64,000 nt of DNA. It comes from Xenophilus sp. AP218F. GTDB taxonomy: Bacteria; Pseudomonadota; Gammaproteobacteria; Burkholderiales; Chromobacteriaceae. Shown here in pieces: positions 3,130-34,687 of this stretch (its first letter is position 1; every line of letters begins with the position of its first letter). Position numbers and translations under genes: made by a program. The stretch spans positions 62,001-126,000 of the forward strand of contig NJIE01000022.1 of assembly GCA_002213445.1 (NCBI GenBank), written 5' to 3'. The notes beneath the pieces are model-generated. The model ran no database searches, was not told where the DNA came from, and saw nothing but the letters and a program-made list of their open reading frames with translations.

Positions 3130-3738
3130 ATGAAGACATTCCTTACTCTCATCCTGGCCGCGGCGCTGCCGCTCACCGCGCACGCCGCCGCCATCCCGCA
3201 ATTGAAAGCCTTCATCGCCGGCAGCAAGACGCTGTCGGCCGAGTTCACCCAGGTGGTCAGCAGCAAGGGCAAGCGCGAAGAAGCCAGCGGCACGCTGGAG
3301 ATCGCCCGCCCCGGCAAGTTCCGCTGGGAATACCGCAAGCCTTACAACCAGCTGATCGTCGGCGACGGCAAGACGCTGTGGATTTACGATCCGGATCTCG
3401 CCCAGGTCACCCGCAAGGCGCAAGGCGCGGCGCTCGGCACCAGCCCGGCGGCGCTGCTGGCCGGCAGCAACGCCATCGAACAGAATTACCGCCTGAAAGA
3501 AGCCGGTAAAAGCGGCGAGGCGGAGTGGCTGGCCGCCAGCCCCAAGCAGCAGGACAACACCTTCAGCGCCATCCGCATGGGCTTCAGGAACAATATGCTG
3601 GTGGAGATGGAGTTGAACGACAGCTTCGGCAACACCACCCGCATCGTCTTCGGCGCCCCGCGCCAGAACGTCTCCTTGCCGGCGGGCCGCTTCGCCTTCG
3701 CCCCGCCCAAGGGCGTAGATGTGGTCAGCGGCGACTGA
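3130..3738 (+). CDS. lolA: Outer-membrane lipoprotein carrier protein LolA
   Basis: Periplasmic chaperone that takes lipoproteins from the LolCDE transporter and hands them to LolB at the outer membrane. 202 residues, the usual length. There is a clear Sec signal peptide (hydrophobic run then AHA-A at residues 17-20) and typical LolA segments: SAEFTQVV, the RPGKFRWEY strand, and a C-terminal half ending in FAPPKGVDVV. It is single and followed by its own terminator. Identification is by overall sequence pattern and is secure. Confidence 0.95.
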   Translation: MKTFLTLILAAALPLTAHAAAIPQLKAFIAGSKTLSAEFTQVVSSKGKREEASGTLEIARPGKFRWEYRKPYNQLIVGDGKTLWIYDPDLAQVTRKAQGAALGTSPAALLAGSNAIEQNYRLKEAGKSGEAEWLAASPKQQDNTFSAIRMGFRNNMLVEMELNDSFGNTTRIVFGAPRQNVSLPAGRFAFAPPKGVDVVSGD

Positions 3739-31893: not shown

Positions 31894-32085
31894 TCAGTCT
31901 TGCCTTCCAGTCGCCGCGCGCGCGGCTTGGCGCTGTTGCCAGGCGGCGAGCCGCGCGCGGTAATCGCGCAGCTCGGCCTGGTAGATATCCAGGATGCAGG
32001 GTTCGCAGCCGCTGCCGCAGCACATGTCGTCCGTCACTTCGAACGGCGGCTCCGGCATCGGATCGAAAACATCCTCCCCAGTCAT
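31894..32085 (-). CDS. Oxidoreductase-like domain small cysteine-rich protein
   Basis: 63 residues. MTGEDVFDPMPEPP is followed by the cysteine cluster CCGSGCEPCILDIYQAEL, the pattern of the oxidoreductase-like domain (PF09791 type), probably a metal site. A helical Arg/Gln-rich tail follows. ATG 32085 shares a base with the stop of the S4 gene, so the pair is coupled. No function is established. Confidence 0.85.
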   Translation of the reverse strand: MTGEDVFDPMPEPPFEVTDDMCCGSGCEPCILDIYQAELRDYRARLAAWQQRQAARAATGRQD

Positions 32086-32300
32086 CAGGCTGCCGTCACG
32101 CGGATGACAAAGCCCTCGCCGCTCACGGTCTGGCTGGGACGAATCTTGCAAGTCTTGCGCAGCTCCACCTGGCCATCCACCTTGACGTTGCCTTCGGCGA
32201 TGAAATGCTTGGCGGCGCCGCCGGATTCGCAGACGCTGCAGGTCTTGAGCAGGTCGCACAAGGCGATGTAATCGTTGCGCAGCTGAAAGGTTTCGTTCAT
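32085..32300 (-). CDS. S4-domain RNA-binding protein, YbcJ-like
   Basis: 71 residues forming one S4 module: FQLRNDYIALCDLLKTCSVC, GGAAKHFIAEGNVKVDGQVELRKTCKI, GEGFVIRV. The AKHFIAEGNVKVDG block matches the conserved alpha-L RNA-binding motif. First gene of the operon running to the site-2 protease; the DnaA-box-like array begins just upstream of it. RNA target unknown. Confidence 0.9.
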   Translation of the reverse strand: MNETFQLRNDYIALCDLLKTCSVCESGGAAKHFIAEGNVKVDGQVELRKTCKIRPSQTVSGEGFVIRVTAA

Positions 32301-32320
32301 TTTTTCACACTCGATCTGGA

Positions 32321-32514
32321 CAGGCCTGTGAGCCGGTTGTGGACAAGGCTCGCAAGTCTTTCATCTTTCAATATTTTTCAGGATTGCCCATTTTTTAGGC
32401 AATGCAAAGCCGCTATCCCCATCCGCCCGGAACAAGCTTGTGGAGGCGCTGTGGATAGCCGCGCCAAGGCCATGAAACGGCAGCGCTTTTTCAGACTGCC
32501 TGTTTTTTGGGCAG
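32321..32514. repeat. Paired TGTGG-box repeat array, units 1-2
   Basis: Unit 1 has cores at 32327 (TGTGA) and 32338; unit 2 at 32439 and 32450. Each pair is 11 bp apart and the second core lies in TGTGGACAA or TGTGGATAG, which read as TTGTCCACA and CTATCCACA on the minus strand. The units are 112 bp apart. Two hairpins with hexa-T loops accompany them: ATTGCC/GGCAAT (32383-32403) and CTGCC/GGCAG (32496-32514), the latter inside the 3' end of the kinase gene. TGCAAAGCC at 32403-32411 is shared with units 4-6. Confidence 0.85.
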
Positions 32515-33060
32515 CAAGGCGCGTATCGCCGCCAGCGCCCGCTCCATGCGCAACGCGTGCGCGCCGCCCAGCTCCAGCGGCGCGATGCCGGCCGCGGCCA
32601 GCGCCTCGCGATGCAGGCCCAGCAGCCAATCGCGCTGGGTGGGGTGGCTGCGCAGCGGGTCCGGTTCCCAGGGAATGTCCGGCAAGGCGAGCAAAGTCAG
32701 CGCGTAGTCCGTCGGCCGATACAGCGCCAGCAGCCCGGGCGAGGCCGCGCCGTGGGCCACCTCCGCCCAGATCTTGCAGGTCAGGGCCGTGGTGTCGCAC
32801 AGCAGCACTTCGCCGACGCCGGCGCGCTCCGCCGCCAACTGGCCGCGGGCGATCGCCTCGATGTCGGCCGGAGTGGAGCGGTATGGCCGATCGGCGTAAT
32901 ACTCGCGCGCATACTCGGCCACCCAGGCGGCGGCCACGCCCTCCGCGTTCAAGGCCTGCGCCAACGCGCAGGCCAGCGTGCTCTTGCCGCTGGACTCCGG
33001 GCCGACGATGGCGATCTTGAGCGCGGCGCGCGGCGGGGCTTGAGTATCTGGATGTTTCAT
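32491..33060 (-). CDS. NadR-like AAA/P-loop kinase (nicotinamide-riboside-kinase-like)
   Basis: 189-residue P-loop protein. Walker A is IVGPESSGKSTLACALA; the segments AEYAREYYADR and LLCDTTALTCKIWAEV match the ribosylnicotinamide kinase domain of NadR. The nucleotidyltransferase and repressor domains of full NadR are absent, so any role in NAD salvage would need a separate adenylyltransferase. ATG 33060 is preferred; an upstream GTG/ATG at 33102 is possible and neither has a strong ribosome site. It is embedded in the repeat array, and its last residues (LLPKKQAV) are encoded by a repeat hairpin. Confidence 0.82.
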   Translation of the reverse strand: MKHPDTQAPPRAALKIAIVGPESSGKSTLACALAQALNAEGVAAAWVAEYAREYYADRPYRSTPADIEAIARGQLAAERAGVGEVLLCDTTALTCKIWAEVAHGAASPGLLALYRPTDYALTLLALPDIPWEPDPLRSHPTQRDWLLGLHREALAAAGIAPLELGGAHALRMERALAAIRALLPKKQAV

Positions 33061-33140
33061 CTGGCAAAGGCTGCGCCGCGCCGTCGGCGGCAAGCCTGTC
33101 ATTATACCGCGTCGCGCACCGCTTACCGCGATTTCTCACA

Positions 33141-33613
33141 GCCTGCGGGGACTAGCTTGTGGGGCGGCTGTGGACAGCCGCCCCAGCCTGTTGATTTACA
33201 TGGGCTTTCCGTCGTCCGCTCATTTTTTGAGCGACGCGGCGGGTTTTCCACGCCGCGAGTGCAAAGCCGTGTGGGCGAGTTGTGGACAAGCGCGCCAAAC
33301 CCTTGACGCGCCAAGCCATTTATCGATCGCCTGTTTTTTAAGCAGAATCCGCCGCGCTTTGCCCACACCCGCAGTGCAAAGCCCTGGGGACGAGTTGTGG
33401 ACAAGCGCCGCAAACCGCTGACCGCTCAGGACAAAACCCGGCCTGCCTGTTTTTTGCGCAACCGCGCCTTGCCGCCCGCGCCGATCGCCCGCGCCGCCCG
33501 CGCCCGGCTTACCCACACCACAGGTGCAAAGCCATGTGGAGCGACTGTGGACAAGCGCCGCAAGGCCTTGATCGGCCTGCATGAAAAAGGGCCGCCTAAA
33601 AAACAGGCAGCCC
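33141..33613. repeat. Paired TGTGG-box repeat array, units 3-6
   Basis: Core pairs start at 33158/33169, 33270/33281, 33385/33396 and 33535/33546, each 11 bp apart. The second core is always TGTGGACAA or TGTGGACAG. In units 4-6 TGCAAAGCC begins exactly 10 bp before the first core (33260, 33375, 33525). Unit 3 is a strong dyad with 11-base arms GGGGCGGCTGT and ACAGCCGCCCC. T6 (or A6) tracts in short hairpins lie after each unit: 33217-33233, 33331-33345, 33446-33460 and 33589-33613. The region has no convincing gene. Confidence 0.85.
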
Positions 33614-33634: not shown

Positions 33635-34633
33635 CTACAGACTGATCTCGCCCGCCAGCGACCAACCCAGCGCAGCGCGCAAGACTTCGCCGCGCGCGCC
33701 GGACGACAGCAGAACGTGCAGCTTGGCCAGCGCCGCCTCAGGCGTCATGTCGCCGCCCGGCAAAGCGCCAGCCTTGGCCAGCGGCTGGCTGGCCGCGTAC
33801 GCGCCCACCGCCACCGCGCCGCTCGCCGCCTGGGTCAGGTTGAGCACCGCCTTGTCCGCGGCCCGCATCGCGCGCACGCCGTCCAGCAAGGCAACCTCCT
33901 CCGGCGCGTTGCCGCTGCCGTAGCTGAGCAGGATGGCGGCGTCCAGCTCGCCCGCCGCCAGCGCCCGCCCGGCGAAGGCCGCGCCGTAACCCGGCGTCAG
34001 CATCAGGCAGGCGATGCGCAGCGCTTCGTCCAGCCGCTGCGGCTGGAACTCGCCCGACTCGGCGCGCCGCCACAAGTCGCGCCGCCAGTGCGGATGAATG
34101 GCGAAGCGGGCCAGCGCTTCGGCATTGGGGCTGGCGAAGCCGGCAAAGCGCTCGGCGTCCACCTTGCGCGCGCGGCAGCCGCGCAGCAGCAGCCGGTCGA
34201 AAGCGATGACGACTTCCCGCAAATCCGGCTGGCAGGCCGCCTCGATGGCGTCGGCCAGGTTGCTCCAGCCGTCGGAGCGGGGATGAATCAGGGGCAGCTG
34301 CGCGCCGGTCAATACCACCGGCTTGCCCAGGCCGCGCAGCGCGAAAGCCAGCACGCTGGCGGTATAGGCCAGGGTGTCGGTGCCGTGGATCACCACGAAG
34401 CCGTCGTAGCGGCCGTAGGCGTCGGCGACGGCGTCGATGATCCGGTTCCAGTCCGCCGGCTCGATGGCGGAAGAGTCGATCAGGCGCGGGAATTCCGCCA
34501 CGTCGAAAGCCAGGCCGGGGCGGCGGAAGCGCTCCAAGAGGCGCGGCAGCAGGCCGGGCGCGGGCGCCAGTCCCTCCGGCGTGTCTTCCATGCCGATGGT
34601 GCCACCGGTGTACAACATCAAAATGCGGCTCAT
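33635..34633 (-). CDS. ansA: L-asparaginase, type I-like
   Basis: Deamidates asparagine to aspartate; no signal peptide, so cytoplasmic. 332 residues from ATG 34633 with AGGAAA site. Active-site motif 1 is ILMLYTGGTIGM and motif 2 is FVVIHGTDTLAYTASVLAF; the LTGAQLPL strand and SYGSGNAP segment complete the fold. Neighbouring GntR gene is on the same strand but there is a 54-base gap, and the repeat array lies directly downstream. Confidence 0.93.
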   Translation of the reverse strand: MSRILMLYTGGTIGMEDTPEGLAPAPGLLPRLLERFRRPGLAFDVAEFPRLIDSSAIEPADWNRIIDAVADAYGRYDGFVVIHGTDTLAYTASVLAFALRGLGKPVVLTGAQLPLIHPRSDGWSNLADAIEAACQPDLREVVIAFDRLLLRGCRARKVDAERFAGFASPNAEALARFAIHPHWRRDLWRRAESGEFQPQRLDEALRIACLMLTPGYGAAFAGRALAAGELDAAILLSYGSGNAPEEVALLDGVRAMRAADKAVLNLTQAASGAVAVGAYAASQPLAKAGALPGGDMTPEAALAKLHVLLSSGARGEVLRAALGWSLAGEISL

Positions 34634-34687
34634 GCGGTTTCCTGTCTTGCTTGGCAAGCCGTCATGGTAGCCGATTCCCGTCCGGCG

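Follow-up and report, generated by a model that had tools for sequence, protein, structure and literature searches.

DARS loci recharge DnaA and so contribute to the timing with which Escherichia coli initiates replication. In these loci DnaA boxes I and II are opposed, and ADP release is stimulated by the head-to-head pairing across them, as described in PMC8682772. DARS1 is stated to need no protein factor (PMC4585315). For DARS2, a conserved spacing of core, IHF and Fis sites is attributed in a review (PMC5742627) to those beta- or gamma-proteobacteria that are proximal to E. coli, and in PMC4245941 to gammaproteobacteria. By comparing these systems with a repeat array in the window, i.e. 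the whole 64-kb stretch of DNA that was analyzed, we arrived at the view that the array probably represents six tandem DARS-type modules of the DARS2 kind, which would convert ADP-DnaA to ATP-DnaA.

The array is situated on the plus strand and falls into two groups of units. Units 1 and 2 lie between a small S4-like ORF (32085..32300, minus strand) on the left flank and a NadR-like kinase ORF (32491..33102, minus strand), while units 3 to 6 are bounded by the kinase and, on the right flank, by an asparaginase-like ORF (33635..34657, minus strand); the three gene labels are presumptive, having been given on reading the sequence. Unit 1 (32301..32400) comprises an inverted DnaA box I at 32301-32309, boxes II, III and IV at 32315-32323, 32327-32335 and 32338-32346, an IHF-like site at 32353-32365 and a Fis-like site at 32386-32400, and scores 72.0 bits with R1, a model of the unit described below. 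Unit 2 (32413..32512, 66.7 bits) has its boxes I to IV at 32413-32421, 32427-32435, 32439-32447 and 32450-32458, followed by an IHF-like site at 32465-32477 and a Fis-like site at 32498-32512, the latter overlapping the last codons (3' end) of the NadR-like ORF. The same succession is found in unit 3 (33132..33232, 59.9 bits), with boxes at 33132-33140, 33146-33154, 33158-33166 and 33169-33177, IHF-like site at 33184-33196 and Fis-like site at 33218-33232, and in unit 4 (33244..33343, 73.7 bits), with boxes at 33244-33252, 33258-33266, 33270-33278 and 33281-33289, IHF-like site at 33296-33308 and Fis-like site at 33329-33343. Unit 5 (33359..33459, 65.3 bits) has boxes at 33359-33367, 33373-33381, 33385-33393 and 33396-33404, an IHF-like site at 33411-33423 and a Fis-like site at 33445-33459. 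In unit 6 (33509..33608, 67.4 bits) the boxes are found at 33509-33517, 33523-33531, 33535-33543 and 33546-33554, the IHF-like site at 33561-33573 and the Fis-like site, with an A tract on the plus strand, at 33594-33608, inside a hairpin which, judged by eye, could terminate the asparaginase-like gene. Six adjacent modules with a DnaA/IHF/Fis pattern, conserved in relatives as described below, suggest a control station, present in multiple copies, that would govern when the chromosome is replicated.

An earlier, sequence-only reading of this DNA had reported six pairs of TGTGG-type cores, and all twelve cores were found at the positions it gave, 11 bp apart in each unit and with one mismatch in the first core of units 1 and 5. 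What it had taken for units are the unit middles, i.e. boxes III and IV of modules of about 112 bp; the inverted box I and box II of these modules, as well as their IHF-like and Fis-like sites, had escaped it. Likewise, the recurrence at 112-150 bp that it described holds inside each group but not across units 2 and 3, where the step is 719 bp and contains the NadR-like kinase ORF. The paired motif TGTGGN6TGTGGAYA has four exact matches in the window, all in the array, against none in 100 shuffles, and the own genome of 3.98 Mb contains no exact match besides these four. Employing a 108-position model of the unit, seven places were identified in this genome at E<=1e-3, namely the six units and one further site (G000:C18:183010). 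The whole-genome scan which the sequence-only reading had proposed returned four exact matches and seven model matches in all, and thus not the hundreds of dispersed copies expected of an ordinary interspersed repeat. No Rfam family reached its gathering threshold in the 64-kb window.

The anatomy of the unit was derived from 127 aligned units in 35 family loci, the window included, with position 0 set at the first TGTG. In the module of about 112 bp, box II follows the inverted box I at 14 bp, box III comes 12 bp and box IV another 11 bp later, and an IHF-like and then a Fis-like site complete it; boxes I to III accordingly stand at -26, -12 and 0. In the profile, box I appears as the block TTTTCCACA at -26, box II as GKGGACAG from -11 to -4, box III as TGTG at 0 and box IV as TGTGGAYAR at +11; the downstream part shows CAAGCCNNTGA at +26, TGCCTRTTTTTTAGGCA in the region from about +58 to +75 and, between the two, a run of A/T around +49. 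The box I pattern TTWTNCAC is exact in 37 of the 127 units and the box II pattern KGGAYAR in 57; as a putative DnaA box, box II is degenerate, and weak in the own genome. In PMC8682772 and PMC4245941 the consensus for IHF is given as TAAnnnnTTGATW, to which the +26 block is similar, and that for Fis as GnnYAnnnnnTRnnC, to which the last block is similar. At +26, an IHF-like YAANNNNYTGA was found in 69 units (shuffled mean 0.005), the stricter YAANNNNTTGA in 29 and the full 13-letter YAANNNNTTGATW in four. The relaxed Fis pattern GNNYRNNNNNYRNNC occurs at +57 to +63 in 120 units (shuffled mean 2.6) and the published consensus GNNYANNNNNTRNNC in 74 (shuffled mean 0.8), which makes the Fis-like site a consensus-level match. 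Its arms covary as palindromes (GCCT/AGGC, GCTT/AAGC, GATT/AATC) around a T6 centre that is A6 in some units, and at least four of the five arm pairs together with an A/T-rich centre were found in 55 units, as opposed to 3 out of 381 control windows.

Certain deviations from this layout were also encountered. In five units of two loci (L114 and L115) the IHF-like block lies 11 bp further downstream, about one helical turn; for the DARS2 IHF sites, a move by 5 bp is described as worse for activity than one by 10 bp in one direction (PMC4245941). The 14/12 spacing is not an absolute rule, since boxes III and IV come one base later relative to box I in 7 of 52 units at other loci (taken from 78 R1 matches, the six window units and weaker matches being left out).

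In the E. coli sequences, we assigned boxes I, II and III of the DARS1 core (L074) to 2108, 2122 and 2134 and those of the DARS2 core (L075) to 1636, 1650 and 1662. The latter core was chosen because it is followed by a pair of IHF sites (1729 and 1745), each with one mismatch and 3 bp from the other, and by a Fis match (1781); such a 3-bp separation of two IHF sites is also described for DARS2 (PMC4245941). The core geometry of DARS1, located between bioD and uvrB, is identical to that of the family units, but DARS1 is present in a single copy and has a stronger box II. DARS2, located between rppH and mutH, shares with the array the three-box core with its inverted box I and its spacings of 14 and 12 bp, the succession of IHF and then Fis downstream (IHF-like and Fis-like sites in the array), and an intergenic location between origin and terminus. 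It differs in that its IHF and Fis sites are 79 and 131 bp from box II (by our assignment), compared to 38 and 71 bp in the array, and in being a single core with no strong box 11 bp past box III, whereas the array has six units, each with its own IHF-like and Fis-like site. With datA the array has DnaA boxes plus an IHF site (IHF-like in the array) in common, but the datA boxes lack the 14/12 triplet and datA is nearer to oriC. The datA spacing, with boxes at 3245 and 3407 and IHF at 3310 (L076), is not matched by that of the array (box IV at +11, IHF-like site at +26 and the next box I at about +86).

The model R1 was built from 71 of the 127 family units after dropping similar ones, without any E. 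coli sequence. When it was run with filters off on 14,503 bases of DARS1, DARS2 and datA DNA, the two DARS cores ranked first and second out of 29 matches, albeit with weak scores of 7.6 and 7.3 bits (E 0.042 and 0.055); the third match had 6.3 bits (E 0.11), and the best one among the datA boxes 5.0 bits, a small gap. These scores are weak taken alone, and the identical register of the putative boxes is in our judgment the stronger fact.

Within the family, the paired pattern was found in 57 out of 61 genomes (own included), and the reversed pattern once in each of two genomes. Forty loci were fetched from 36 of the 60 other family genomes, and 34 of these, one each from 34 genomes, are syntenic, with the units on the strand opposite to the neighboring genes. 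The synteny comparison which had been suggested beforehand thereby places the array among the same neighbors in 34 of 36 relatives, only G031 and G032 having exclusively non-syntenic matches. The six non-syntenic loci (L048, L049, L054, L055, L056 and L062) were excluded from the unit set; L048 and L049 have one R1 match each. Among the 34 kept loci, the kinase was not matched in L045, L064 and L066, nor the asparaginase in L058. G037 is without the exact pattern, yet its locus (L120) is syntenic. Two family loci, L042 and L043, carry about 3 kb of extra DNA between the unit groups and have kept the units.

As counted by nhmmer, the 35 syntenic family loci hold three to seven units each. The units located by pattern gave 92 steps from one neighbor to the next, of which 34 measure exactly 112 bp and six 111 or 113 bp. 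For 120 units with a position label (seven of the 127 had none and were left out), the nearest unit of another genus occupies the same array position in 67 cases, with 30.2 expected, and for first units in 24 out of 26. Only eight of the 120 are nearer to a sister in their own array than to any other-genus unit. Because units match by array position across genera, the array is older than the genera and not a recent duplication.

With respect to the chromosome, the absence of a nearby dnaA that had been pointed out earlier was borne out, the gene being located on a different contig (G000:C16:268138). In 13 relatives with both on one contig, the distance between array and dnaA is 0.154-0.385 of that contig (for G018 and G056, a second contig was left uncounted), and the units are oriented against the replication fork in all 13. 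In these relatives the array is placed between oriC and terminus, as expected for a DARS. The map minutes in PMC4585315 correspond to distances from oriC of about 0.21 for DARS2, 0.33 for DARS1 and 0.10 for datA in E. coli.

The own genome encodes DnaA, Hda, IHF-alpha and a Fis homologue (an 81-aa open frame, 49% identity). Nine of its loci were scanned for DnaA, and only the origin locus (L299) was positive. Just upstream of dnaA there is a core-like triplet with three mismatches, i.e. at near-chance level (L299:1501-1530, G000:C16:267870). The additional array-type unit at G000:C18:183010 is a single one (L107:7011-7115), situated between ABC-F-like and accD-like ORFs. A strict E. coli-like core, TTWTNCACN7GTGGAYARN3TGTG, has no exact match in this genome, against expectation. 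With up to three mismatches there are nine, including units 1, 4, 3 and 6 with 1, 2, 3 and 3 mismatches, respectively, and units 2 and 5 are missed even then; the three-mismatch matches are near chance, since the reversed pattern gives two at the same level. A further core with two mismatches, at L297:1501-1632 (G000:C24:98198), is a second, gamma-like DARS candidate, having an exact IHF match at offset 119 in addition to a Fis match at 85. It lies beside an ORF which, judged on reading the sequence, we take to be hemE-like, and its core-IHF pattern has counterparts in 7 of the 61 family genomes, own included.

Beyond the family, R1 matches at E<=1e-3, E-values in these genome searches being only rough, were found in 162 out of 399 genomes of the order, 149 of which belong to other families, and in 32 out of 369 genomes of the class (30 belonging to other orders; E mostly between 1e-6 and 1e-3). 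In 60 loci, nhmmer gave 239 matches forward (training units included) and none on the reversed loci. Two to six units, not all adjacent, were seen in 16 of the 18 other-family loci fetched, and none of the ten window proteins was found beside the units in any of the 18. The strict core itself occurs in 186 of the 369 class genomes (reversed pattern 0 of 369) and in 85 of 398 genomes drawn from the phylum; members of the class account for 69 of these (out of 137 drawn) and other genomes for 16 (out of 261). In this draw, one DARS1-like and one DARS2-like core are found together in six genomes. Among the matches listed are Pseudomonas, Legionella, Lysobacter, Nitrosomonas, Janthinobacterium, Duganella and enterics, as well as a few far relatives, e.g. 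Paenibacillus.

Of the 145 class cores, one incomplete, 142 non-redundant ones entered a profile and 135 had flanks for offset counts. The relaxed Fis pattern was located 85-86 bp from box I in 54 of the 135 and absent there in 81, while the strict one was found at 85-86 in 36 and at 85-87 in 39 (shuffled 0.31); in the family units the Fis-like site has the same offset of 85-86 bp. An exact IHF pattern at 110-135 was seen in 24 class cores, with none in two control ranges. The class-wide cores differ from the array in their stronger boxes, despite the Fis offset shared in 54 of 135, and in having exact IHF matches at 119-121, reversed (21), more often than at 51-52 (5). No fourth box was observed at +37 in these cores. 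When downstream profiles of family and class were compared, the best correlation was at shift 0 (3.50), with the next at shift 1 (2.72), over a background mean of 0.27 (sd 0.96, 41 shifts). As each feature is present in a minority of the class cores, this class-wide architecture is a tendency and not a rule. A DnaA gene was found in 0 out of 138 class loci (L127-L264), a scan which a dnaA farther off could escape because flanks were at most about 1.5 kb in 20 loci and 2.3-8 kb otherwise. We consider it possible, though on balance somewhat doubtful, that the beta-proteobacteria hold an ancestral, compact class of DARS with a fourth DnaA box, amplified into fixed tandem arrays of cooperating units, in which copy number and helical phase would set the gain of the switch from ADP- to ATP-DnaA, and that DARS constitute a general control system in beta- and gamma-proteobacteria, the two E. 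coli loci being derived.

The sequence facts support a platform for a DnaA oligomer, and with it the earlier proposal of DnaA boxes in a dedicated nucleoprotein structure, for which the conserved place, phase and orientation speak; an activity in nucleotide exchange, and a use for having several units, are what we infer. In such a module, DnaA would bind head to head on the inverted box I and on box II, boxes III and IV would extend the oligomer, IHF would bend the DNA just downstream, and Fis, bound some 85 bp away from where box I starts, would stabilize the complex. The strained oligomer could then release ADP, leaving apo-DnaA that would rebind ATP. Placing several modules in series might raise the output of ATP-DnaA or make the response to IHF and Fis steeper. 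Binding of these proteins, release of ADP and the purpose of having several copies are all predictions from the sequence; the main doubts about a DARS concern box II, which is weak, and the IHF-like site, which matches its consensus loosely.

A DARS2-like function is proposed here rather than a titration site, which the sequence-only reading had favored in the form of a datA-like locus. Up to 24 boxes, some of them weak, could bind DnaA, or the IHF-bent DNA could promote ATP hydrolysis, as the numerous clustered boxes and the IHF-like sites would allow, and DnaA-box clusters in B. subtilis and Streptomyces are reported to repress untimely initiation (PMC5742627). We nevertheless regard this as unlikely, in that the 14/12 triplet is absent from the E. 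coli datA boxes, datA is 0.10 from oriC (PMC4585315) compared to 0.154-0.385 between array and dnaA, and titration alone has no need for a fixed inverted box I, a fixed IHF place or a Fis site. The earlier interpretation is supported as regards a DnaA-box platform, but core spacings of 14 and 12 bp, IHF-like and Fis-like sites and the distance to dnaA match a DARS, and datA fits less well. Titration may still occur, and could coexist with a DARS role.

The other explanations that were weighed, i.e. gene regulation, an interspersed repeat, an RNA and an origin, were like titration alone ranked below a DARS. The units are upstream of the S4-like and NadR-like genes, and box III and the end of the S4-like match are separated by 26-27 bp in 21 out of 26 labelled first units, as might be expected of a regulatory region of these adjoining genes under DnaA, IHF and Fis control; this is improbable, however, considering that all ten window proteins are absent beside the units in 18 of 18 other-family loci and in the single-unit locus of the own genome (L107), and that L042 and L043 keep their units despite the extra DNA between the groups. 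Palindromes centred on T6 or A6 could also be those of an interspersed repeat, a mobile-element remnant or a structured RNA, but we give this very little credence: a centre switching between T6 and A6 fits double-stranded DNA, only seven units exist genome-wide at E<=1e-3, no match in the window reached an Rfam gathering threshold, and array position is kept across genera (67 of 120, 30.2 expected) with only eight of 120 units nearer to a sister. A replication origin or backup origin is the least credible proposal, the near-chance triplet with three mismatches upstream of the own dnaA (C16:267870) being set against a dnaA that is 0.154-0.385 genome lengths away in 13 genomes, so that the array is not at the dnaA-linked place of an oriC.

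A DARS as such is known, while the tandem array and the fourth box look new; no description of a DARS array in a beta-proteobacterium was found in the literature (open PubMed Central papers). Of the "undescribed repeat family" that had been offered as an alternative, the tandem arrangement was indeed not found described, but the array is of a known kind. If the DARS interpretation is true, the loci with three to seven units constitute a natural series for testing how module number tunes initiation, and the array would be an ancient, syntenic, multi-copy DARS with an IHF-like and a Fis-like site in every unit, so that a system known from work on enterics would reach a large part of the beta- and gamma-proteobacteria. 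Lastly, a second core-like triplet exists in E. coli itself (L075:1952-1986), in the rppH-mutH gap that also contains the DARS2 core and some 316 bp away from that core; its outer boxes are weak and its spacings, by eye, are 14 and 12.
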